Shown here piece by piece: positions 5,333-42,270 of a DNA stretch of 64,000 bases. The notes below the pieces were generated by a model. That model saw nothing but the letters and a program-made list of their open reading frames with translations. It had not been told where the DNA came from and did no database searches. The translations under genes and the position numbers were made by a program. Position 1 is the stretch's first letter; the number at the start of each line of letters is the position of its first letter. The DNA is from Pseudoxanthobacter soli DSM 19599 (GTDB lineage Bacteria; Pseudomonadota; Alphaproteobacteria; Rhizobiales; Segnochrobactraceae), in the NCBI RefSeq assembly GCF_900148505.1, contig NZ_FRXO01000006.1, positions 1 through 64,000 on the forward strand, read 5' to 3'.

Positions 5333-6133
5333 TCAGATGTGGCTGGCGCGGAAGCGCGCCAGAAAGGCGCCGAGGCGCTCGTTGCCGGCGGTGTTCGCCA
5401 CCAGTTCGGCGGGCGGACCCTCGGCCGCGACAGCGCCATCGGCCATGAACACGATGCGATGGCTGGCGTCGCGAGCGAAGGCGATCTCGTGGGTGACCAT
5501 CAGCATGGTCATGCCGTCACCCGCGAGGCTGCGCACCACGTCGAGCACCTCGCCGACGAGTTCGGGGTCTAGCGCGGAGGTGATTTCGTCGAGCAGCAGG
5601 ATCTTCGGGTCCATCGCCACCGCGCGGGCGATGCCGACGCGCTGCTGCTGGCCGCCGGAAAGCTCGCCGGGCAGACTGTCGGCCTTGTGGCCGAGGCCGA
5701 CGCGGCCGAGCCAGTGCTCGGCGATAGAGCGGGCCTCGGCCTTGCCCTTGCCGCGCACCCGCCGCAGGCCCAGCATCACGTTCTCGGCCGCCGTCAGGTG
5801 CGGGAACAGGTTGAACTGCTGGAACACCATGCCGGTCTCGGCGCGCATGCGGGCAAGGTCGCGCTCGCCGCGCCGCCGCCGCCCCTCTCCGTCGGAGAAG
5901 CCGACCTCGGCGCCGTCGATGCGGATCGAGCCGCCGTCGTAGGTCTCCAGGAAGTTGACGCAGCGCAGCAGCGTGGTCTTGCCCGAGCCGGACGGCCCGA
6001 TGACGGTGACAACCTCGCCCCGGCTCACGTCGAGATCGACCGAACGCAGGACATGGTGGGAACCGAACGACTTCGACAGTCCCCGGATGGCGAGCAAAGG
6101 CGGCGGACCGGCCTCGGTGACGGACACGGACAT
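5333..6133 (-). CDS. Polar amino-acid ABC transporter ATP-binding protein
   Basis: This 266-residue ATPase energises the adjacent HisM/GlnP-type permeases. Walker A GPSGSGKTT, Q-loop FQQFNLFPHLT, signature LSGGQQQR, Walker B LLLDEITSALDPE and switch His in VTHEIAFA are all present. The Walker B sequence EITSALDPE is typical of the polar amino acid uptake family. The start at 6133 has GGGAG upstream. An ATG seven codons earlier (6154) overlaps the preceding permease gene but lacks a ribosome site. It is the last cistron of the importer operon. Confidence 0.95.
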   Translation of the reverse strand: MSVSVTEAGPPPLLAIRGLSKSFGSHHVLRSVDLDVSRGEVVTVIGPSGSGKTTLLRCVNFLETYDGGSIRIDGAEVGFSDGEGRRRRGERDLARMRAETGMVFQQFNLFPHLTAAENVMLGLRRVRGKGKAEARSIAEHWLGRVGLGHKADSLPGELSGGQQQRVGIARAVAMDPKILLLDEITSALDPELVGEVLDVVRSLAGDGMTMLMVTHEIAFARDASHRIVFMADGAVAAEGPPAELVANTAGNERLGAFLARFRASHI

Positions 6134-6140
6134 TGCGGTC

Positions 6141-6791
6141 TCACTCCCGGACATAGGAGAAATGCGCTTCGAGGCGGCGGCTCGCCAGCGACAGGGAATA
6201 GTTGACGACGAAATAGATCAGCGCCCCGAACACATAGAGCGGCAGCGCCTCGTAGGTCCGACCGATCACCTGGTTGATGGCGTGCATCAGGTCGGTGACG
6301 CCGAGCAGGGAGATCAGCGCGCTGCCCTTGACGGCATCGGTCACGCCGTTGATCCACGGCGGCAGGAACCGCCGCACCGCCTGGGGCAGGATCACATATC
6401 GCAGACGGTCGACGAAGGTGAGGCCGATGGCCTTGGCCGCCTCGTCCTGACCGCGCGGGATCGAACGCACCGCGCCGCGGACGTTCTCCACCACCTGCGC
6501 CACCTTGAACAGCACGAGCGCGATGATGGCCGCCGTCAGCGCCGGCAGGTTGATGTGCAGCGCCGGCAGGCCGTAATAGACGAAGAAGATCAGCACCAGC
6601 ACCGGGATGCCCCGGATGGTGTCGCTCATGATCCGCACCGCCCAGCGCACCGGCCACGGCCCGTAGACGAGGCCGATGCCGAGCACCAGCCCGAGCGCCA
6701 GCGACACCACGACGACCACCAGCGAGACATAGAGCGTGACCAGGAAGCCCTGGACCAGGAACGGCGCGGCGTAGACGATCGCATCGATCAT
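6141..6791 (-). CDS. Polar amino-acid ABC transporter permease (second)
   Basis: This 216-residue inner-membrane protein has about five hydrophobic segments and the EAA-type coupling sequence around residues 125-150 (RGQDEAAKAIGLTFVDRLRY), which contacts the ATPase. An N-terminal stretch (FLVQGFLVTLYVSLVVVVVS) is typical of HisM/GlnP permeases. It follows the partner permease with a 1-bp gap, so the two probably form a heterodimeric channel. The substrate class is inferred from the binding protein and ATPase subfamily. Confidence 0.92.
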   Translation of the reverse strand: MIDAIVYAAPFLVQGFLVTLYVSLVVVVVSLALGLVLGIGLVYGPWPVRWAVRIMSDTIRGIPVLVLIFFVYYGLPALHINLPALTAAIIALVLFKVAQVVENVRGAVRSIPRGQDEAAKAIGLTFVDRLRYVILPQAVRRFLPPWINGVTDAVKGSALISLLGVTDLMHAINQVIGRTYEALPLYVFGALIYFVVNYSLSLASRRLEAHFSYVRE

Positions 6792-6792
6792 G

Positions 6793-7455
6793 TCAGCGCT
6801 CCACCTTGAAGTGCCGCTCGAGAAGCCGCAGGCCGAACAGAAGAACGTAGCCCGTGACGAGATACATCCCGGCCGTCACGAGGTAGACCTCGACGATTCT
6901 GAAAGTGTTAAGGTTAATCCACTGCGCCCCGAAAGTAAGTTCCGGCACGGAGATGACGGACGCGACGGACGTGTCCTTGAACAGCGAGATGAACGTGTTC
7001 GAAAGAGAGGGCAGGGATATGCGGAACATCGTCGGCAGCCGGACATCGACGAGCCGTTGCCATGGCGTGAGCCCGATCGCCTTGGCCGCGTCGAGCTGCC
7101 CCCGGGGGACGGCATCGAGCCCGGCCCGGAACACCTCCACGAGGTGGGCGCCGGCATAGACCGCGAGCGTCGCGACGAACGACGTCGTCGCGCTGTAGCG
7201 GATGTCGACCACGGTCGGCAGGCCATAGAACACGAGGTAGACGAGCAGGATCAACGGCACGTTGCGGATGAACTCGACATAGGCCGAGATCGCGGTTCTG
7301 ACCGCGCGTCCGCCGGAAACATACCAGACCGCGAGCGTGAGGCCGATCACGACGCCGATGGCGATCGCGAGCACGGCGAGCTCCAGGCTGAGCAGGAGGC
7401 CGTCCCACAGGCGGTCGAAGTGACGCCAGATCAGCGTGAAATTAAGGCGATACAT
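6793..7455 (-). CDS. Polar amino-acid ABC transporter permease (first)
   Basis: This 220-residue inner-membrane permease of the HisM family has RLWDGLLLSLELAVLAIAIG at the start, the segment RNVPLILLVYLVFYGLP, and the coupling loop PRGQLDAAKAIGLTPWQRLVD. The ATG at 7455 is used; a TTG one codon earlier is the alternative. It lies between the binding-protein gene and the second permease. The upstream gap holds an imperfect hairpin (7529-7555) that may set off the binding-protein message. Confidence 0.92.
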   Translation of the reverse strand: MYRLNFTLIWRHFDRLWDGLLLSLELAVLAIAIGVVIGLTLAVWYVSGGRAVRTAISAYVEFIRNVPLILLVYLVFYGLPTVVDIRYSATTSFVATLAVYAGAHLVEVFRAGLDAVPRGQLDAAKAIGLTPWQRLVDVRLPTMFRISLPSLSNTFISLFKDTSVASVISVPELTFGAQWINLNTFRIVEVYLVTAGMYLVTGYVLLFGLRLLERHFKVER

Positions 7456-7528
7456 CAAGTCCGTCCATCAGCCGGGCAAGCCGCCGGAACGGACGGAAGG
7501 CAGACCGCCCTCCATCCGCGGGGAGCCA

Positions 7529-7555
7529 CAACGGGCGCCGGCAAGGCGGCCGTTG
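7529..7555 (-). other. Intercistronic hairpin after the amino-acid binding-protein gene
   Basis: The 11-bp arms CAACGGGCGCC and GGCGGCCGTTG pair with one mismatch around GGCAA. Similar hairpins follow the binding-protein genes of the two CUT2 importers at 12994 and 57226. There is no T-run; a role as mRNA stabiliser or partial terminator is inferred. Confidence 0.5.
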
Positions 7556-7584
7556 CGGCAGGGCAGGGCGCCGAGACCGGCGGA

Positions 7585-8526
7585 TCAGATGGTCGGGAAG
7601 CCCGGCTTCCGGACGGGCGCGTCCAGGCCGAAATAGTCCTTGAAGGCCTTGTCGTAGAGCCCGGTCTCGTGACCGAACATCGCCACCATGAAGGTGGTGT
7701 TGACGAACTGCAGCCAGTCGAGATCGTCCTGACGCAGCGCCGCACCGTAGAGCATGCTGTACCAGCTCTTGCCCGCGTCGAAATAGCGGTCCGGATTGCG
7801 CGAGGCGAGCCAGCGCACGGTGGACAGGTCGACCGCCGCCGCGTCCACGCGCTTGGAATCGAGCGCCTGGAGCACGTTCGCCTGGGTATCGAGCTGCATC
7901 ACCTCGGCCTGGGGCAGCACGGTGTGGACCGACTGCTCGGCGTCGACGTTCTGCAGGATCGAGACCCGGGTCGACGAGCCGCCGGCGAGCAGTTTGTCGA
8001 AGGTGCGGTTCTCCGCATCCGGCCGCGTCAGCAGCGCGACGCCCTCGACATAATAGGGGCGGGAGAAGTTGATGAGCTGCGCCCGCTGGGCGGTGATCGT
8101 CATGAACTGGATCGAAATATCGACTTTTCCGGTCACGACGTTCGGAATACGCTGGGCCGGATCCTGGAGGACGAATTCGACCTTGTTCTCGTCGTCGAAC
8201 AGCCCCTTGGCCAGGATGCGCCCCATGGTGATGTCCATGCCGACGAGCTGGCCCGCCTCGTTCTCGAAGTGCCACGGCGCATTGGTGCTGCCGGTGCCGA
8301 CGAGAAGCTTGCCGCGGTCGAGCACCGTGTGCAGCAGGCTGTCGCTCGCCGCCTGGGCCTTGGCCTCCTGCGGCGTGAGCGTCGTCGCCGCACCGGCCAC
8401 GAGGCCGGCCGTCGCGAGGCCGGCAGCGCCGAACTTCAGGAAGTCGCGCCGCTTGGCGAGCGCCGCATCCGAACGCCCGTCCTTCATTCGCTCGCCTTTG
8501 GAAATCTCGTCCGTGATCTCGTCCAT
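7585..8526 (-). CDS. ABC transporter substrate-binding protein, SBP_bac_3 type, Tat-exported
   Basis: This 313-residue periplasmic binding protein belongs to the polar amino-acid class. The N-terminus carries a twin-arginine signal (AKRRDFLKFG, hydrophobic stretch, cleavage near AKAQA at about residues 52-57). The mature part has LLVGTGSTNAPWHFENEAG, VDISIQFMTITAQRAQLINF and a C-terminal lobe with VAMFGHETGLYDKA. It is the first cistron of the importer operon, divergent from an IclR gene. The start at 8526 has GGGGAA upstream; Met14 is an alternative that keeps the full Tat motif. The ligand is unknown. Tat export implies folding before export. Confidence 0.92.
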   Translation of the reverse strand: MDEITDEISKGERMKDGRSDAALAKRRDFLKFGAAGLATAGLVAGAATTLTPQEAKAQAASDSLLHTVLDRGKLLVGTGSTNAPWHFENEAGQLVGMDITMGRILAKGLFDDENKVEFVLQDPAQRIPNVVTGKVDISIQFMTITAQRAQLINFSRPYYVEGVALLTRPDAENRTFDKLLAGGSSTRVSILQNVDAEQSVHTVLPQAEVMQLDTQANVLQALDSKRVDAAAVDLSTVRWLASRNPDRYFDAGKSWYSMLYGAALRQDDLDWLQFVNTTFMVAMFGHETGLYDKAFKDYFGLDAPVRKPGFPTI

Positions 8527-8618
8527 GACGTTCCCCGTGCTGGTAACCGTTCCCGTTGACCGGCTGTTTCCCGACCGGAAGGACCGCGCCGTGAATTAGC
8601 GCTATCCAAACCCACAAG

Positions 8619-8636
8619 TGTCTATTATATGAGACA
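8619..8636. promoter_or_regulatory. Candidate IclR operator in the divergent promoter region
   Basis: TGTCTATTATATGAGACA is an 18-bp palindrome (TGTCT-N8-AGACA) midway between the divergently transcribed binding-protein and IclR genes. IclR regulators often bind such sites and control the neighbouring operon and themselves. The assignment is by position. Confidence 0.55.
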
Positions 8637-8716
8637 TTCGTTTCTTGTGTTGGACAGATGATAGCACCGATTCACCGGCTCGCAAGGTGCGGGGGACCAT
8701 TCCGTTGACGAAAGTG

Positions 8717-9499
8717 ATGACGAAGGACGCCGCCGGCACGCCACCTGCCAAAGCCGGTGAGCGCGAGCGCGGCATAGACCGCGTCCTGCAGTTGTTCGAA
8801 TATCTGCACCACCACCGCCAGCCGATCCGCATCGGCGCGCTCGCGAAGGGCCTGAATGCGCCCCGTTCCACCATCTACAATCTGGTGAACGCGCTGGTGG
8901 AGGGCGGTCTTCTGGAGATCGTCGACGACGAGGGCCGCGTCTTCTTCGGCAAGACGATCTATCTCTACGGCTCGCACTACATGCGGGAGAACGAGCTGGT
9001 GCGCCGCGGCCGCGAGGCGGTCGACCGCCTGTCGCGCGAGACCGGGGAGACGGCCGAGCTCTGCATGCTGCAGAACGGGCGCTACACCATCATCCACATG
9101 TGCCAGGGCGACCGCACGTTCCGCATCAGCTCGGCGATCGGGCTGCAGATTCCGATTCCGTGGACGGCCTCGGGCCGCCTGCTGCTGGCCCATCTCGACG
9201 CCGACGAGATCCGCACGCTGATCCGCGACGAGGACCGGGTGCTGCCGGACGGCCGCGAGGTGGAGACGGAGGAATTCCTGTCCTCCGTCGCCGAGGCGCG
9301 CCGGAACGGCTACTGCACCACGGTCGGACTGATCGATGCCTTCACCATGTGCATCGCGGCGCCGATCTACGGCGCGAGCGGAAAGGTGGAGGCGACCATC
9401 TGCTTCGTCGTTCCGAAGGAGACGCCCGAAGCGCGCACGAAGGAACTCATCGCGCTGCTGCTCCAGACCGGACGGGCGCTTTCCGTCCGTCCGGAGTAA
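8717..9499 (+). CDS. IclR-family transcriptional regulator
   Basis: The protein is 260 residues from the ATG at 8717. The N-terminal winged helix-turn-helix is visible as RVLQLFEYLHHHRQPIRIGA and LNAPRSTIYNLVNALVEGG. The C-terminal effector domain follows, with ETGETAELCMLQNGRYTIIH, IPWTASGRLLLAHL and a typical GYCTTVG...AAPIYGASG block. An upstream GTG or the ATG at 8645 would only add unconserved residues. It is divergent from the amino-acid importer operon, and a palindrome at 8619-8636 lies between them, so it probably controls importer, RidA and lyase expression. Effector unknown. Confidence 0.92.
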   Translation: MTKDAAGTPPAKAGERERGIDRVLQLFEYLHHHRQPIRIGALAKGLNAPRSTIYNLVNALVEGGLLEIVDDEGRVFFGKTIYLYGSHYMRENELVRRGREAVDRLSRETGETAELCMLQNGRYTIIHMCQGDRTFRISSAIGLQIPIPWTASGRLLLAHLDADEIRTLIRDEDRVLPDGREVETEEFLSSVAEARRNGYCTTVGLIDAFTMCIAAPIYGASGKVEATICFVVPKETPEARTKELIALLLQTGRALSVRPE

Positions 9500-9550: not shown

Positions 9551-10567
9551 TCATGCCGGCGTGGGCGCATCCTCGCGCAGCAGGCCCTCGTGCTTCAGCT
9601 GCTGCCAGAATGCCGGCGGAATCGGGTGGCTGAACCAGGCGAGGTTCTGCTGCAGCTGCTCGACCGTGCGCGTTCCGGCAACGAAGCAGGGCACCGCGGG
9701 GTGCGCGACGACGAACTGCAGCGCGGCGGCGGCGAGCGGCACGCCGTGCTCGCGACACACCGCCTCGATCTTCGCGACCTTGTCGAGGATCGGCTGCGGC
9801 GCGGGGGCGTAGTTGTATTTGGCGCCCGGGCGCGCGCCGGTCGCCAGAATGCCGGAATTGAAGCCGCCGCCGACGGCGACCGCCGCGCCGCGCTCGACAC
9901 AGAGCGGCAGGAAGTGGTCGAGCGCGTCCTGTTCGAGCAGGGTGTAGCGGCCGGCGAGCAGGAAGCAGTCGAAATCGCGTTGCTTCAGCGCCTCGTAGCA
10001 GACTTCCCATTCGTTGACGCCGACGCCGATCGCTTTGACGACACCCTGGCTGCGCAGCGATTCCAGCGCGCGCCACGACCCGTCCATCGCCTGCCGGAAG
10101 ACCTCCGGCTGGTCGGCGCCGCGGGTGAACACGTCGATGTCGTGGATGTAGCAGATGTCGATCCGCTCCAGCCCGAGGCGCTGCAGCGAATCCTCGAAGG
10201 CGCGCATGGTGCCGTCGTAGCTGTAGTCGAACACGAGATTGAACGGCGCGGCGTTCGCCCATGGCGTAAAATCGATGCTGGCGCGCGGGGCGGGCGCGAG
10301 CCGGCGGCCGACCTTGGTCGAGAGCACGAAGGAATCGCGCTCCTTCCAGCGCAGGCTGTAGCCGGTTCGGTATTCGGCGAGCCCATGGCCGTACATCGGC
10401 GCGGTGTCGTAGTGGCGCACCCCGGCATCCCAGGCGGCGTCGAACATCGCCTCGGATTCGCGCTCCGGCACGGGGCGGAAGATGTTGCCGACCGGCGCGG
10501 TGCCGAAGGCGAAGGCCGTCACCGGCAACCCGCTGCGGCCGAAGGGCCGGCGCTCATCTGGCTTCAT
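9551..10567 (-). CDS. Aldo/keto reductase, L-fucose / D-threo-aldose dehydrogenase-like
   Basis: This 338-residue (beta/alpha)8 NAD(P)-dependent oxidoreductase shows the catalytic tetrad: Asp and Tyr in HYDTAPMYGHG, Lys in VLSTKVGRR and His in CYIHDIDV. Sequences such as FGTAPVGNIF, ICYIHDIDVF and GGGFNSGILATG resemble the D-threo-aldose / pyridoxal 4-dehydrogenase branch rather than classical aldose reductases. The start has GGGAGAG upstream. The gene converges on the IclR gene and precedes a second aldo/keto reductase in the same direction with a 120-bp gap. The physiological substrate is not known; a sugar or sugar lactone step is likely. Confidence 0.88.
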   Translation of the reverse strand: MKPDERRPFGRSGLPVTAFAFGTAPVGNIFRPVPERESEAMFDAAWDAGVRHYDTAPMYGHGLAEYRTGYSLRWKERDSFVLSTKVGRRLAPAPRASIDFTPWANAAPFNLVFDYSYDGTMRAFEDSLQRLGLERIDICYIHDIDVFTRGADQPEVFRQAMDGSWRALESLRSQGVVKAIGVGVNEWEVCYEALKQRDFDCFLLAGRYTLLEQDALDHFLPLCVERGAAVAVGGGFNSGILATGARPGAKYNYAPAPQPILDKVAKIEAVCREHGVPLAAAALQFVVAHPAVPCFVAGTRTVEQLQQNLAWFSHPIPPAFWQQLKHEGLLREDAPTPA

Positions 10568-34875: not shown

Positions 34876-35286
34876 TCACTGCAGGCCCGGCAGCCGCTCC
34901 ATCGCCTCCTCGCAGCTTCGCAGGCACGCACGGCAGGCTTCGGCGCAGATGCGGCAGTGCTCGTGCATCCCGGCGTGGCGTTCGCATTCCTCCGCGCAGG
35001 AGCGGCAGATTTCGGCGCAGGCCTGCAGCGCGAGATGCAGCACGCGCGCATCCGCCCCGGCATGCCGGCTGGCGATGCGGCCGGTCGCCGTGCAGATGTC
35101 GGCGCAGTCGAGATCGAGGCTGATGCAGCGGCGCAGGTCGGCCACCATGTCCTCGGCGAGGCACGCATCGGCGCACTGGATGCAGGTCGCGGCGCAATCG
35201 GCGCATTGCTCGATGCAGTTCACGATCGCGTCGCTGGGCCGGCCCTGAACGGACGGGTGGGACATGAGCATGGACTGGGTGTCCAT
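34876..35286 (-). CDS. Cys-rich four-helix-bundle copper-binding protein (DUF326/Csp-like)
   Basis: This 136-residue protein has 18 cysteines in Cys-x3-Cys and related spacings (CIEQCADCAATCIQCADAC and similar) plus several His residues. These are hallmarks of DUF326 proteins that form four-helix bundles and store copper(I), such as Csp3. No signal peptide is evident, so it is probably cytosolic. A near-perfect EcfG-type promoter lies 41 bp upstream. The likely role is copper buffering under general stress. Confidence 0.9.
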   Translation of the reverse strand: MDTQSMLMSHPSVQGRPSDAIVNCIEQCADCAATCIQCADACLAEDMVADLRRCISLDLDCADICTATGRIASRHAGADARVLHLALQACAEICRSCAEECERHAGMHEHCRICAEACRACLRSCEEAMERLPGLQ

Positions 35287-38350: not shown

Positions 38351-38517
38351 CGTAGAAGCGTCCTGCGGGCTTCCGGTTCCCGGGGGGAACAGGCGCAAAG
38401 GTTGGTCCGTCGTCTTCTCCCGGCGCGGCGGAGAGGAGCGGGAGAAGCTCGTCTCCGACCGGGGCCGTGCCGACGGCGGCGGCAGCGGCCACGGCTTGCA
38501 TCGTGGCTTCTACATAG

Positions 38518-38536
38518 CGTGGGAAAAATTCCCACG
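38518..38536. promoter_or_regulatory. Palindrome in the divergent hydrolase/sirtuin region
   Basis: CGTGGGAA-AAA-TTCCCACG has perfect 8-bp arms and lies between the hydrolase cassette and the sirtuin gene. It has the size and position of an operator. Confidence 0.5.
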
Positions 38537-38662
38537 TCAAGAATTTTCGATGGGGAGAGCGGGATGACGGCGCGGACGAACGCCGGGCGGCGGGTGGAAC
38601 GGCGCGGGCGGGCGTGGTTCATTGGGCGCGGACCGGACCTCGCCGCGAAAGGGCACGACGCG

Positions 38663-39382
38663 ATGAAACTGTTCGTTCTGACGGGCGCCGGCTGCTCGGC
38701 CGAAAGCGGGCTCGGCACCTTCCGCGACAAGGAAGGCGCATGGGCGCGGTTCGACCCGATGAAGCTCGCGACGCCGGAGGGGTTCGCAGACGATCCCGAT
38801 CTGGTGCACGCGTTCTACAATGCCCGCCGCGGCAACCTGCTGACGGCCATGCCGAACGAGGCGCACAGGGCACTGGCGCGGCTGGAGGCCGAGCTCGCGG
38901 CCCGCGGCGGCGCGCTGTTTCTCTGCACCCAGAACATCGACGACCTCCACGAGCGCGCGGGGTCGCGGAGCGTCGCCCACATGCATGGCGAGCTGCGCAA
39001 GGCGCGCTGCCTCGCCTGCGGCGCGGTGACGGCGTGGGACGACGATCTCGGCCGGAACGACACATGCCCCGCCTGCGGGGAGACCGGCGGCCTGCGCCCG
39101 CACATCGTCTGGTTCGGCGAGATGCCGCTCTACATGGCCGAAATCCAGGACGCGCTCGAGGAGGCGGACCTGTTCGTCGCCATCGGAACGTCGGGCTCGG
39201 TCTATCCGGCGGCGGGCTTCGTGGGGCAGGCGCGCCACATGGGCATCCGCACCTGCGAGATCAACCTGGAGCCCTCGGACAATGCCGGCCTGTTCGACGA
39301 GCGCTATTACGGCGCCGCGACCGAGGCGGTTCCGGCCTGGGTCGAGCGCGTGCTCACGGGTCCGGACGCCCTCGTGCGATAG
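38663..39382 (+). CDS. NAD-dependent protein deacylase (sirtuin, CobB-like)
   Basis: This 239-residue sirtuin has the NAD-binding motif LTGAGCSAESGLGTFRD, TQNIDDLHERAG, the catalytic His in AHMHGEL and a zinc site Cys-x2-Cys...Cys-x2-Cys (CLACGAV, CPACGE). It removes acyl groups from protein lysines using NAD+. This ATG gives the common family start. An in-frame ATG at 38564 with a strong GGGGAGA site would add 33 Arg-rich residues. E. coli CobB has a comparable longer form. The gene converges on the Nramp gene. Confidence 0.9.
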   Translation: MKLFVLTGAGCSAESGLGTFRDKEGAWARFDPMKLATPEGFADDPDLVHAFYNARRGNLLTAMPNEAHRALARLEAELAARGGALFLCTQNIDDLHERAGSRSVAHMHGELRKARCLACGAVTAWDDDLGRNDTCPACGETGGLRPHIVWFGEMPLYMAEIQDALEEADLFVAIGTSGSVYPAAGFVGQARHMGIRTCEINLEPSDNAGLFDERYYGAATEAVPAWVERVLTGPDALVR

Positions 39383-39404
39383 AGCGTTCCGATCCGCTGG
39401 AAAC

Positions 39405-39424
39405 GGCGGGGACCGCTCCCCGCC
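39405..39424. terminator. Hairpin between convergent sirtuin and Nramp genes
   Basis: GGCGGGGA-CCGC-TCCCCGCC has perfect 8-bp arms in the 75-bp gap between the two stop codons. It may terminate both directions; a T-rich tail is short. Confidence 0.5.
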
Positions 39425-39457
39425 ATTGCCTTTACGCCGGATTCAGGCGGATGCCGT

Positions 39458-40741
39458 TCAGGACTGGAACAGGCCGGCGATGCCGGAATAGACGCCGAGC
39501 GCGCACATCACGCCCGTCACGCTCCAGACGACGACCGCATAGCGTCCCTTCAGGCGATAGGGCTCCGGCAGCGCGCGCTGCGACAGCAGCACGAGGAAGC
39601 CGAGCACCACCGGCAGCAGCAGCGCATTCAGCACCTGGACGAAGATGTTGACGTCGATCAGGTTGGCGCCGGACAGCACGACCGAGACGCCGATCACCAG
39701 CACCACGGCATAGACCACGTAGAACCAGGGCGCCTGCTTCACCCCGTCGCCGAGGCTGCGGCGGTAGCCGGTGATCTCGCCCATGCCCCACGCGGCGGTC
39801 AGGCTGACGACGATGGCGGCGACCAGCGACGCCCCGACGATACCGAGCGAGAACAGGATGCGCCCGGCATCGTAGCCGAGATGGGGCGTGATGGCGTCGC
39901 TGATCTGCTCGACGGTGTTGAGGTCGACGCCACCCTCCTGGTTCGCCCAGAGCGTGGCCGCGGTGGTGACCAGCATCGCGATCATCACGAGCTGGGTGAT
40001 GACGGAGCCCACCGCGGTATCGATGCGGGAGTGGCGCAGATGTTCGACCGTGAGACCTTTGTCCACCACCGCCGACTGCTGGTAGAAGATCATCCAGGGC
40101 ATGACGACCGCGCCGATATTGGCGGCGACCAGGAAAAGATAGTTGGAATCCGACACGGGGAAGTTCTTCAGCCCCGCCATCACCTGGCTCGGATCCGGGC
40201 TCGACATGAACATGGTGACGAGGAACACGAGCTCGAACAGCCCGACGCCGATGGCGATGCGCTCCACGCGGAGATAGGACCCCGTCAGCACCATGATGAC
40301 GAGAAACAGCGTGACGGCCCCGGTCGAGGCCCACATCGGGATGCCCCACATCAACCCGACCCCGGCGATGCCGCTCATCTCGCAGACGATGGCGCCGGCG
40401 CACGCGACGACCAGCGTCGAGACCGACAGCCACGCCCAGCCGCGGCCGAAATGGGATTCGATGAGTTCGCCGTGGCCCTTGCCGGTGACGACGCCGAGCC
40501 GGATCGTCAGCTCCTGCACCATGAAGACGATCGGAATCAGGATAACCTGCGCCGACAGCAGCGTGTAGCCCCACTGCGCGCCGCTCTGCGCCGCCGTGAT
40601 CAGGCTGCCGGCGTCGGTGTCGGCGAGCATGACCACGAGGCCCGGTCCCATGATGGCGAGATAGGCCATCAGGGCGGACCGGCGGGTCAGACGCACGGAG
40701 GCCGTTCCGCCGGAGGAAGGCGAATAATCATTGCTGGACAT
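39458..40741 (-). CDS. Nramp-family divalent metal transporter with altered metal-site motifs
   Basis: This 427-residue inner-membrane protein has about eleven hydrophobic segments. The TM1 motif is DAGS (residues 43-46, in MLADTDAGSLITA) in place of DPGN, and the TM6 motif is MPW (214-216, AVVMPWMIFYQQ) in place of MPH. The metal-liganding Asp and Met are kept; Asn and His are not. Classical MntH takes up Mn2+. This variant could differ in ion or proton coupling. Upstream is an AT-rich gap with no clear metal-regulator box. Confidence 0.88.
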   Translation of the reverse strand: MSSNDYSPSSGGTASVRLTRRSALMAYLAIMGPGLVVMLADTDAGSLITAAQSGAQWGYTLLSAQVILIPIVFMVQELTIRLGVVTGKGHGELIESHFGRGWAWLSVSTLVVACAGAIVCEMSGIAGVGLMWGIPMWASTGAVTLFLVIMVLTGSYLRVERIAIGVGLFELVFLVTMFMSSPDPSQVMAGLKNFPVSDSNYLFLVAANIGAVVMPWMIFYQQSAVVDKGLTVEHLRHSRIDTAVGSVITQLVMIAMLVTTAATLWANQEGGVDLNTVEQISDAITPHLGYDAGRILFSLGIVGASLVAAIVVSLTAAWGMGEITGYRRSLGDGVKQAPWFYVVYAVVLVIGVSVVLSGANLIDVNIFVQVLNALLLPVVLGFLVLLSQRALPEPYRLKGRYAVVVWSVTGVMCALGVYSGIAGLFQS

Positions 40742-40988
40742 ACATTAATCTCTGTAAAAGAGCCCCATCTCTTCAATTCAGGATGATTGGGCGCGATTAA
40801 AAAGACTGTCAATCAGAATATATTGTAATTACTTTAAATACAAAGTCGGGGCGATGTCATCGAAACTGTCAAGACGGCGTGCGGAAAGATAAGCCGGCGC
40901 GCCCAGAACTAAACGCATAGAACCGACAGGCTCACGAATGAAGAGGCCGCCAAGCCAGATTGCGGCTGATGATCTTCCGACGGGACTT
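40742..40988. other. AT-rich gap upstream of the Nramp gene
   Basis: This stretch is much richer in A/T than the surroundings and holds no gene. It contains an ACTGTCAA direct repeat (40805 and 40865) and a TTGTA-N11-TACAA inverted pair (40823-40843). It probably carries the Nramp promoter and regulatory sites. No riboswitch could be recognised. Confidence 0.4.
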
Positions 40989-41021
40989 AAAAAAAGAGGC
41001 CCGGGCCGGAGCCCGGGCCTC
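40989..41021 (-). terminator. Rho-independent terminator after the manganese catalase gene
   Basis: An 11-bp perfect stem GAGGCCCGGGC / GCCCGGGCCTC around CGGA (40996-41021) is followed, in the leftward direction, by seven T residues (40995-40989). It lies 75 bp after the catalase stop. Confidence 0.9.
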
Positions 41022-41095
41022 GACGCTTTACGTTCCACGCGGATCCTGCCGGTTCCGTCAGTTCCTGACGATCTGGTCAGCCCTTCGCGATCTCG

Positions 41096-41923
41096 TCAGC
41101 CCTTGGCGATCTGGTCGGACTGGGCGCCGCTGTCCGGCCGGGGCGGCGCGAGGTCGGGCTTGCCGCCGAGGGGCTTCGAGACCTCGCTCGTGAACTCCGC
41201 GCGGCCGTCGATGGTGGAGCCCGACGACCAGCGGCCCTCAGGGATCGATCCATCGGCCATGTGGCCGAGATAGACATAGGAGAACTCGCCGTTCTCCTTC
41301 TCCTGCGGAAAACTGTCCGGGATCGGCAGCGCCGCCGAACCGCCGAGTTCCTCGATGGCCGCAAGCCATTGCTGCTGGTGCATGGTATCGCGAGCGATCA
41401 GGAACGACAGCATGTCCTTCATGCCGGGATCGTCCGTCATGTTGTAGAGCCGCACCGCAAGAACGCGGCCGGACGCTTCCGCCGTGACGTTGGCATACAT
41501 GTCGGCGGCGATGTTGCCCGACGCATAGACATGAGAGGCGTTGAACGGCACGCCGTTCGCATCGGCGGGAAGCGCTGCGAGGCCGGTCGACAGCAGGTGG
41601 CGGAAGTCCATGCCGTTCAGCACGGCGCCGCCCATGGGATCGGCGGCGACCTCCTCCTGCAGGGACAGCGGCGCGGTCTCCAGATTGAGCGCGACGGCCG
41701 TGGCCAGCATTTCGATGTGGCCGAGCTCTTCCGTCGCGGTATTCAGCAGCATGTCGCGGTATTTTGCCGGCCCGCGCGCGCCGAATGCCTGAAACATGTA
41801 TTGCATGGCGACGCGAATTTCACCCTCGACGCCACCGATCGCCTGTTGCAGGGCCCGGGCAAAGACGGCGTTCGGCTTGTCGACGCGGACCGGATATTGC
41901 AGTTTTCCGTCGGTGTAGAACAT
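41096..41923 (-). CDS. Manganese catalase
   Basis: This 275-residue non-heme catalase has the dimanganese ligands Glu35 (VEGEIR), Glu66 and His69 (ATEELGHIEM), Glu149 (VTAEASG) and His182 (DTMHQQQW). These positions match the family pattern. It decomposes hydrogen peroxide. The ATG follows GGGAGG; a TTG one codon earlier is not favoured. A perfect EcfG-type promoter lies 104-129 bp upstream and a strong terminator follows. The adjacent Nramp relative may supply manganese, but its altered motifs leave that open. Confidence 0.95.
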   Translation of the reverse strand: MFYTDGKLQYPVRVDKPNAVFARALQQAIGGVEGEIRVAMQYMFQAFGARGPAKYRDMLLNTATEELGHIEMLATAVALNLETAPLSLQEEVAADPMGGAVLNGMDFRHLLSTGLAALPADANGVPFNASHVYASGNIAADMYANVTAEASGRVLAVRLYNMTDDPGMKDMLSFLIARDTMHQQQWLAAIEELGGSAALPIPDSFPQEKENGEFSYVYLGHMADGSIPEGRWSSGSTIDGRAEFTSEVSKPLGGKPDLAPPRPDSGAQSDQIAKG

Positions 41924-42026
41924 CAAAACCTCCCATGCGGCAGACGCCGGCCGACGTGTCGCGACGGACGTGCCGTTGTGATGGTCAGAACCGTCTGCTG
42001 ACGGCGGATCGGGGACCCGACCGACG

Positions 42027-42052
42027 AACGGGCGCTTTGCTGCGATTGTTCC
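42027..42052 (-). promoter_or_regulatory. Candidate EcfG-type promoter, manganese catalase
   Basis: Minus-strand GGAAC (42052-42048), 17-bp spacer, CGTT (42030-42027), perfect to consensus. Transcription would begin near 42020, about 97 nt before the catalase ATG. Manganese catalase is a known general-stress target in alphaproteobacteria. Confidence 0.75.
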
Positions 42053-42171
42053 GCGACGGTCCGAATGCTGCCTTCAACGGGCGGTAGTCTCGGGACGAGA
42101 TCAGGCGCGGCCGTTGCGCGCTCACCCCGTCGCCGGAGCGAGGACGAATTCGGTCGACGGAAGACGAACGG

Positions 42172-42196
42172 GGAACCTGGGATGCCCCGCCTTGTT
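42172..42196 (+). promoter_or_regulatory. Candidate EcfG-type promoter, glgA
   Basis: GGAAC (42172-42176), 16-bp spacer, TGTT (42193-42196). One mismatch from CGTT. It lies about 75 bp ahead of the first glgA start codon, divergent from the catalase promoter. Confidence 0.5.
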
Positions 42197-42270
42197 GGTA
42201 GGGCGCAGCATCCTCAGCCGCATGAACCTTCGGCCACACGCATCTCGCGCAGCGGGCCGGTTCCGGCAGC

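Follow-up and report, generated by a model that had tools for sequence, protein, structure and literature searches.

Members of the Nramp family are distinguished by the residues of their ion-binding sites. In the available portions of PMC8806188, canonical Nramps carry the signature DxxN-A/CxxM in transmembrane helices (TM) 1 and 6, and the magnesium-transporting NRMT proteins carry DxxG-TxxA/T. The TM6 methionine is presented there as a soft ligand that keeps out alkaline earths, and EleNRMT as a protein without the TM6 histidines (Trp and Asn stand in their place) and without the residues of the proton pathway. How Nramps discriminate transition metals from Mg2+ and Ca2+ is an open question, which the same text approaches by mutating a canonical Nramp toward NRMT. 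The origin of proton coupling, likewise open, has been approached through clade B in a preprint available in part (PMC12873925); according to it, the clade B protein BfraNramp, with DPGN and MPH motifs and no proton pathway, is a proton-independent Mn2+/Cd2+ uniporter that uses the TM3 Glu as a ligand. An M-box riboswitch upstream is a trait of the founding NrmT set (PMC4072509). Here we describe an Nramp-related transporter gene of Pseudoxanthobacter soli DSM 19599, located in the first 64,000 nucleotides of contig NZ_FRXO01000006.1 (the window), whose clade is a mosaic of a Met-type site on an NRMT-like frame without proton pathway. With a probability of about 0.6, we consider it a member of a distinct Nramp-related clade, NRMT-like with AxxM, that functions as an iron-regulated importer of Fe2+ (perhaps of Fe2+ and Mn2+) and is probably uncoupled from protons. 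The phylogeny and the enrichment of Fur sites are the firm parts of this reading; cargo and coupling are what we infer.

The gene is read from the minus strand, the plus strand of the same interval not being the gene. It and the residues discussed below are located as follows.

39458..40741, minus strand: Nramp-related transporter gene, 427 residues, stop codon at 39458-39460 (translation, Pfam, AlphaFold2)
40619..40621, minus strand: Asp41, the second acid of TM1 (alignment)
40604..40615, minus strand: unwound site of TM1, D43-A-G-S46, D-P-G-N in canonical Nramps (motif reading, alignment, helix break of the model at 42-43)
40379..40381, minus strand: Glu121 in TM3, equivalent to E134 of DraNramp and E133 of EleNRMT (alignment)
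40094..40111, minus strand: unwound site of TM6, A211-V-V-M214-P-W216, AxxM-P-H in canonical Nramps and TxxA-P-W in NRMT (alignment, helix break of the model at 213-214)
39635..39637, minus strand: Gln369, equivalent to Q378 of DraNramp and Q379 of EleNRMT (alignment)

The protein is a member of the broad Nramp family PF01566 (252.8 bits; gathering cut-off 29.8) and just passes the loose NCBIfam model Nramp_1, 'Nramp family divalent metal transporter' (53 against 50). It falls below the NCBIfam cut-offs of both NF001923 (MntH; 116.4 against 430 bits) and TIGR01197 (67.4 against 272.5 bits). Among solved structures, its closest sequence match is the magnesium transporter EleNRMT (4.3e-51), with DraNramp far behind (about 1e-17). 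An AlphaFold2 model, computed from 39 sequences comprising the window protein and those of related loci, reached a mean predicted local distance difference test score of 87.0 and a predicted template modelling score of 0.86, with helix breaks at residues 42-43 and 213-214. Its best fold match is again EleNRMT (Foldseek 6.1e-20; Z 48.0, root-mean-square deviation 2.9 over 389 residues), with DraNramp close behind as the next match (Z 46.7).

Asp43, Ser46, Ala211, Met214 and Trp216 are placed as the preliminary description had them, with DAGS starting at residue 43, AVVM at 211 and MPW at 214. The site belongs to neither described signature: it has the canonical AxxM (A211-V-V-M214) but D43-A-G-S46 instead of DxxN, and its DxxS-AxxM departs from the NRMT signature DxxG-TxxA/T. 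Trp in place of the TM6 His and the loss of the proton pathway are both NRMT traits. Among 16 aligned clade rows, Asp43, Ser46, Glu121, Ala211, Met214, Trp216 and Gln221 are invariant, and the Gln369 site is Q in nine and E in seven. The Asp41 site is D in 16/16 clade, 10/11 NRMT-like and 7/7 DPSG rows, and Y or F in 11/11 canonical rows. The canonical residues D131, R352, R353, H232 and H237 are replaced in the clade by Leu or Ile, Tyr, mostly small or aliphatic residues, Trp and Gln, respectively, with NRMT-like rows much alike; in the window protein the replacements are I118, Y341, V342, W216 and Q221, and only E121 of the proton-pathway set is kept. The preliminary description had proposed that the exchanges in TM1 and TM6 could alter ion choice or coupling. 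Coupling is probably altered, because the TM6 His and the proton-pathway residues of TM3 and TM9 are absent, and the exchanged positions mark a different subgroup.

The phylogenetic placement for which the preliminary description had called put the protein in a distinct clade beside NRMT-like proteins, and not with canonical Nramps. Three trees, a quick one of 101 rows, a careful one of 63 rows that omits the window row, and a careful one of 53 rows that includes it and from which the motif columns had been removed, agree on this position. The clade is monophyletic with 100/100 support and includes the divergent member L036. Its sister is a set of proteins that have Pro-Trp and either DAGG/DAGA-TxxA or DxPS-AxxT motifs (100/100), followed by EleNRMT (99/92), the DPSG-SPY group, and finally the canonical and GPGT proteins. 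A topology with canonical Nramps and the clade on one side of a branch was rejected (log-likelihood difference 51.5, approximately unbiased p 0.007). In these trees the protein is no canonical Nramp minus two residues but an NRMT-like protein that carries AxxM, a point that the preliminary description had missed. Since the clade sits by NRMT-like proteins and the canonical grouping is rejected, its AxxM would most simply have been gained independently of canonical Nramps; this convergence is the simplest reading of the tree and not proof, because the root was not inferred.

Some related groups and members have features of their own. Fifteen NRMT-like loci with DAGA/DAGG-TTVAPW sites (L031-L035, L037, L038, L161, L163, L179-L182, L187 and L200) carry 83 to 101 extra residues after the Nramp domain. 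The GPGT group, with Tyr/Asn in TM3 and VPY in TM6, resembles the 'orphan outgroup' described in the available part of PMC10606218. L036, from genome G103, has the site DAGN / AAFNPW, in which Met is changed to Asn; the same genome has a regular member (L028), and L036 possibly handles another ion.

The extent of the clade was assessed by a motif-pattern search of genome contigs, which matched 590 stretches, 480 of them coding for a relative. The best 80 of these loci were used and, together with loci from further genome searches, gave 86 distinct genes with at least 44% identity to the window protein, after two repeats of the window gene (L003 and L004) had been removed from 88 rows. DAGS together with AV[VI]MPW occurs in 75 of them. 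Of the 86 genes, 85 retain Asp43 (Glu in L106), 84 Ser46, 86 Ala211, 85 Met214 and 86 Trp216, the last being partly built in because the scan pattern WM[VI]F[YF]QQ contains Trp216; the other four residues lie outside both scan patterns. Members occur in Pseudomonadota, Actinomycetota, Planctomycetota, Bacillota, Chloroflexota, Nitrospirota, Cyanobacteriota, Thermotogota and Verrucomicrobiota, as well as in one euryarchaeal bin, many carriers being metagenome-assembled genomes (MAGs). The distribution is patchy, with carriers among 4/385 genomes of the class of the window organism (G000, G044, G103 and G336) and 5/200 drawn from its phylum (G000, G044, G103, G489 and G605). The window protein is 66-75% identical to the actinobacterial members L041-L044 (75% to L041) and 53-55% identical to those of other families of its own order; being nearer to the actinobacterial members, the gene has a sequence relationship that suggests horizontal transfer. 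No description of a DxGS-AxxM subgroup was found in the literature searched by title and start of abstract; figures of PMC12873925 may show it unnamed.

To the residue pattern of the clade we can add one of regulation. In the 250 nucleotides upstream of the 86 clade genes, whose start codons were set by a simple rule, AATGAGAATGATT-like words are enriched. When Fur boxes were scored as matches to the 19-mer consensus GATAATGATAATCATTATC, with a threshold of at least 14/19, they were found before 21/86 clade genes, compared with a mean of 0.7 and a maximum of 2 in 20 rounds of shuffling; 13 of the 21 begin between -63 and -35. Upstream regions of other open reading frames (ORFs) from 79 of the same loci gave 3/521 (Fisher 2e-16), and the shuffles matter as a second control because such regions are often coding. 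Boxes at this threshold preceded 0/61 genes of other Nramp-related groups, a set that includes many alphaproteobacterial genes and is not matched by taxon. All four actinobacterial members have DtxR/IdeR-like sites near -40, equalled in 0, 0, 3 and 0 of 400 shuffles. Iron-type sites or iron genes were seen in Gamma- and Betaproteobacteria, Acidithiobacillus, Actinobacteria and one Nitrospirota contig. MntR boxes were not enriched (0/87 at a threshold of at least 12/16), nor were Zur and NikR strings in the clade upstreams. For an Irr-type (iron control element) box, the Hyphomicrobiales members gave p < 0.01 in 3/11 and < 0.025 in 5/11 (Fisher combined 1.6e-5). Irr-type control of these members was left as a weak candidate: a p below 0.02 is also seen in 5/76 other members, and for the window gene p is 0.54.

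An experimental link to Fur is provided by Acidithiobacillus. An electrophoretic mobility shift assay probe for the Fur box of A. ferrooxidans mntH is given in the available text of PMC11910503, in which AfFur binds it. We found identical copies of this 33-base probe in 3 of 17 genomes of Acidithiobacillus, the genus of G653. Each copy immediately precedes a DVGS...GAVIMPW gene, and in the one examined a TTGACA adjoins the 5' side of the probe. Because the exact Fur-site probe stands directly upstream of clade genes, the 'mntH' of A. ferrooxidans is a clade member; the probe-bearing genes are not among the tree rows, and L101, whose upstream region is closely similar, lies inside the clade in the tree. 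Members from A. ferrivorans and A. ferriphilus (L109 and L113), each 55% identical to the window protein, are among the 86. For one branch of the clade, binding by Fur thus rests on the experiment of others, and the clade identity of the gene is established here. The available portion of PMC2631029 reports a validated Fur box for Acidithiobacillus mntH, and states that mntH-like genes were the sole type found out of those it considered as secondary Fe(II) transporters. In A. caldus without fur, feoABC, mntH and feoP are raised (PMC7237784, in its available part), and this mntH may be of the same clade; the available text of PMC10714799 names an A. ferrooxidans MntH, which may be the same gene, as an Fe(II) transporter on the basis of annotation and expression. 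The Acidithiobacillus proteins behind the probe share the DxGS-AVxMPW clade with the window protein and differ from it in having a Fur box; the literature, as far as its available portions go, uses the canonical name MntH for them and does not discuss the binding-site residues. In one of the three probe genomes, the transporter frame (L215) ends early, at 366 codons compared with 439 in the other two, by frameshift or sequencing error.

Compared with described systems, the window protein is nearest in sequence, fold and tree to EleNRMT and NRMT-like proteins (PMC8806188, PMC4072509), with which the clade shares the TM6 Pro-Trp, the kept TM3 Glu and the replaced proton-pathway residues; it differs in having Ser for the TM1 Gly, Ala for the TM6 Thr and Met for the TM6 Ala, and in regulation, with no M-box and with Fur- or DtxR-type sites in relatives. 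With canonical Nramp/MntH proteins (DraNramp, EcoDMT, human DMT1) it shares the LeuT fold, TM1 Asp, TM3 Glu, TM6 AxxM and TM10 Gln, but it lacks DxxN, MPH and the five proton-pathway equivalents listed above, and stands on a separate branch. Its likeness to BfraNramp (PMC12873925) is a Met-type site without proton pathway; on the side of differences we note L150, the row closest to 10ky, in the 53-row tree.

From these comparisons, the protein would be a LeuT-fold PF01566 importer of a distinct clade, in which Met214 may select a transition metal over Mg2+ and Ca2+ as in canonical Nramps, and Asp43 and Glu121 probably supply oxygen ligands. The physiological cargo would be Fe2+, perhaps with Mn2+ too, and transport would follow the membrane potential and not be coupled to protons, the mode reported for EleNRMT and BfraNramp. 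A more specific version, in which the NRMT-like clade, Acidithiobacillus 'MntH' included, re-evolved the soft Met independently and acts as an iron-regulated, proton-uncoupled Fe2+ uniporter, is held tentatively, at somewhat less than an even chance.

The preliminary description had taken a hint of manganese from the adjoining manganese catalase gene. Scans of 38500-42200 located the following two elements between the genes.

40783..40812, minus strand: promoter-like site TTGACA-18-AATCAT of the transporter gene (promoter scan; three such sites in the interval, shuffles mean 0.6)
40996..41021, minus strand: strong terminator-like stem of 11 pairs with a T run, between the manganese catalase and the transporter (terminator scan; three such sites, shuffles mean 2.0)

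A manganese catalase was near 0/86 other clade loci, within flanks of 1.5 to 6 kb, some of them truncated where a contig stops. The hint did not hold up, given also that the regulation in the clade is of iron type: the neighbourhood is uninformative because a terminator lies between the two genes and no catalase recurs, and manganese by neighbourhood was set aside on these grounds together with the separate promoter. At other loci, no conserved operon partner recurs among the 128 of 136 prepared neighbours that were scanned, the neighbour ORFs having been called by length and third-position GC content and some being spurious. In a Nitrospirota contig (L070), genes for a Fur family regulator, the transporter, the N domain and the membrane part of FeoB, and a DtxR-type repressor with a FeoA domain lie in this order on one strand; in a Bacillota locus (L104), a DtxR-type gene and the transporter gene are divergently oriented.

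5451-9319 and 9615-10262 of the L070 contig: iron cluster of fur, Nramp-related gene, feoB (two ORFs) and DtxR/FeoA fusion

Several results weigh against an iron importer. Fur boxes at the same threshold precede 3/32 canonical Nramps, which is not significantly below the clade (two-sided p 0.078). The upstream region of the window gene has no Fur (best 11/19), DtxR (9/19) or Irr-type (9/14) site, so that its iron role is drawn from the clade, its own promoter having no recognisable iron box. Iron genes adjoin the transporter in only 1/80 loci, with an iron-repressor gene alone in one more, and no iron family recurs among the 128 scanned neighbours. FeoB is present in 17/45 carrier genomes (9/24 in a smaller subset of the 45) compared with 109/200 drawn Pseudomonadota, a comparison that is unmatched, partly of MAGs, gives no clear replacement and was not counted as evidence; the window genome has no FeoB match. 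Finally, Fur also represses the manganese-transporting mntH of enterobacteria, and a Fur site is therefore no proof of iron cargo.

This last point lends weight to the possibility that the protein is mainly a manganese importer, or one for Mn and Fe without preference, serving enzymes such as the adjoining catalase, whose gene lies upstream. In canonical Nramps, the combination of AxxM and a conserved Asp is what marks Mn/Fe transport, and DtxR-family proteins include manganese sensors. We nevertheless regard this as rather unlikely, in view of the terminator and separate promoter between the genes, the absence of the catalase from the other loci, the MntR result, and the lack of a yybP-ykoY riboswitch in 40 upstream loci; moreover, the window genome also encodes a canonical DPGN/MPH Nramp (L001). 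Magnesium transport as in NRMT would fit the nearest solved homologue, the nearest clades and the TM6 Trp for His shared with EleNRMT, but is very improbable, since the site reads DxxS-AxxM and not DxxG-TxxA, the soft Met ligand that keeps alkaline earths out of canonical Nramps is present, and relatives are under iron-type regulation. There is also no M-box upstream: an Rfam scan of the window at the gathering threshold found no Mg or Mn riboswitch, and the 40 clade upstream loci gave no bacterial riboswitch (M-box, yybP-ykoY) and only miRNA-type chance matches at one locus. The upstream region of the window gene itself has no M-box, with six weak small-RNA matches far below cut-off at the window terminator. 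A different objection concerns not cargo but history, namely that AxxM goes back to the ancestor of PF01566 and has been retained by both the clade and canonical Nramps, making the protein a relic and not a re-invention. The direction of change does depend on the root, which was not inferred, and GAVVMPH is likewise the sequence in clade B canonical Nramps (10ky). Separate losses would however be needed in the DPSG group, the GPGT group, the kin of EleNRMT and other PW groups, and the tree requires three changes of Met state (in two separate groups and in L036), for which two gains and a loss in L036 are the simplest account; we consider the relic improbable and retain an iron-regulated NRMT-like importer carrying AxxM.

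Other observations concern the surrounding genomes. Of 44 carrier genomes, many of them MAGs, 15 have no other PF01566 gene, and the window genome encodes a DPSG/SPY protein besides the canonical Nramp. A second Nramp-related gene (DPSG / TTISPY; L002/L023; genome G000, contig C8 near 80538-81758) lies within an 885-codon open frame. At L079, L080, L087, L093, L096, L100 and L102, clusters of neighbours resemble, on visual inspection, heavy-metal P-type ATPases accompanied by a MerR-type regulator and CzcA-like pumps. In the window, 34876-35286 on the minus strand encodes a small cysteine-rich protein (Pfam DUF326, 6e-12; NCBIfam Csp1 copper storage, 33.8, below the cut-off of 100).

In summary, the DAGS and MPW motifs of the window protein are the signature of a phylum-crossing clade and not a private variant, and the Fur-regulated 'MntH' of bioleaching acidophiles receives a new label. 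The clade represents a natural reverse experiment, in which an NRMT-like frame with AxxM recurs across numerous genomes and phyla. Should its members move Fe2+ without protons, Met would track metal choice in an NRMT-like frame, and selectivity for transition metals would have arisen twice in PF01566.
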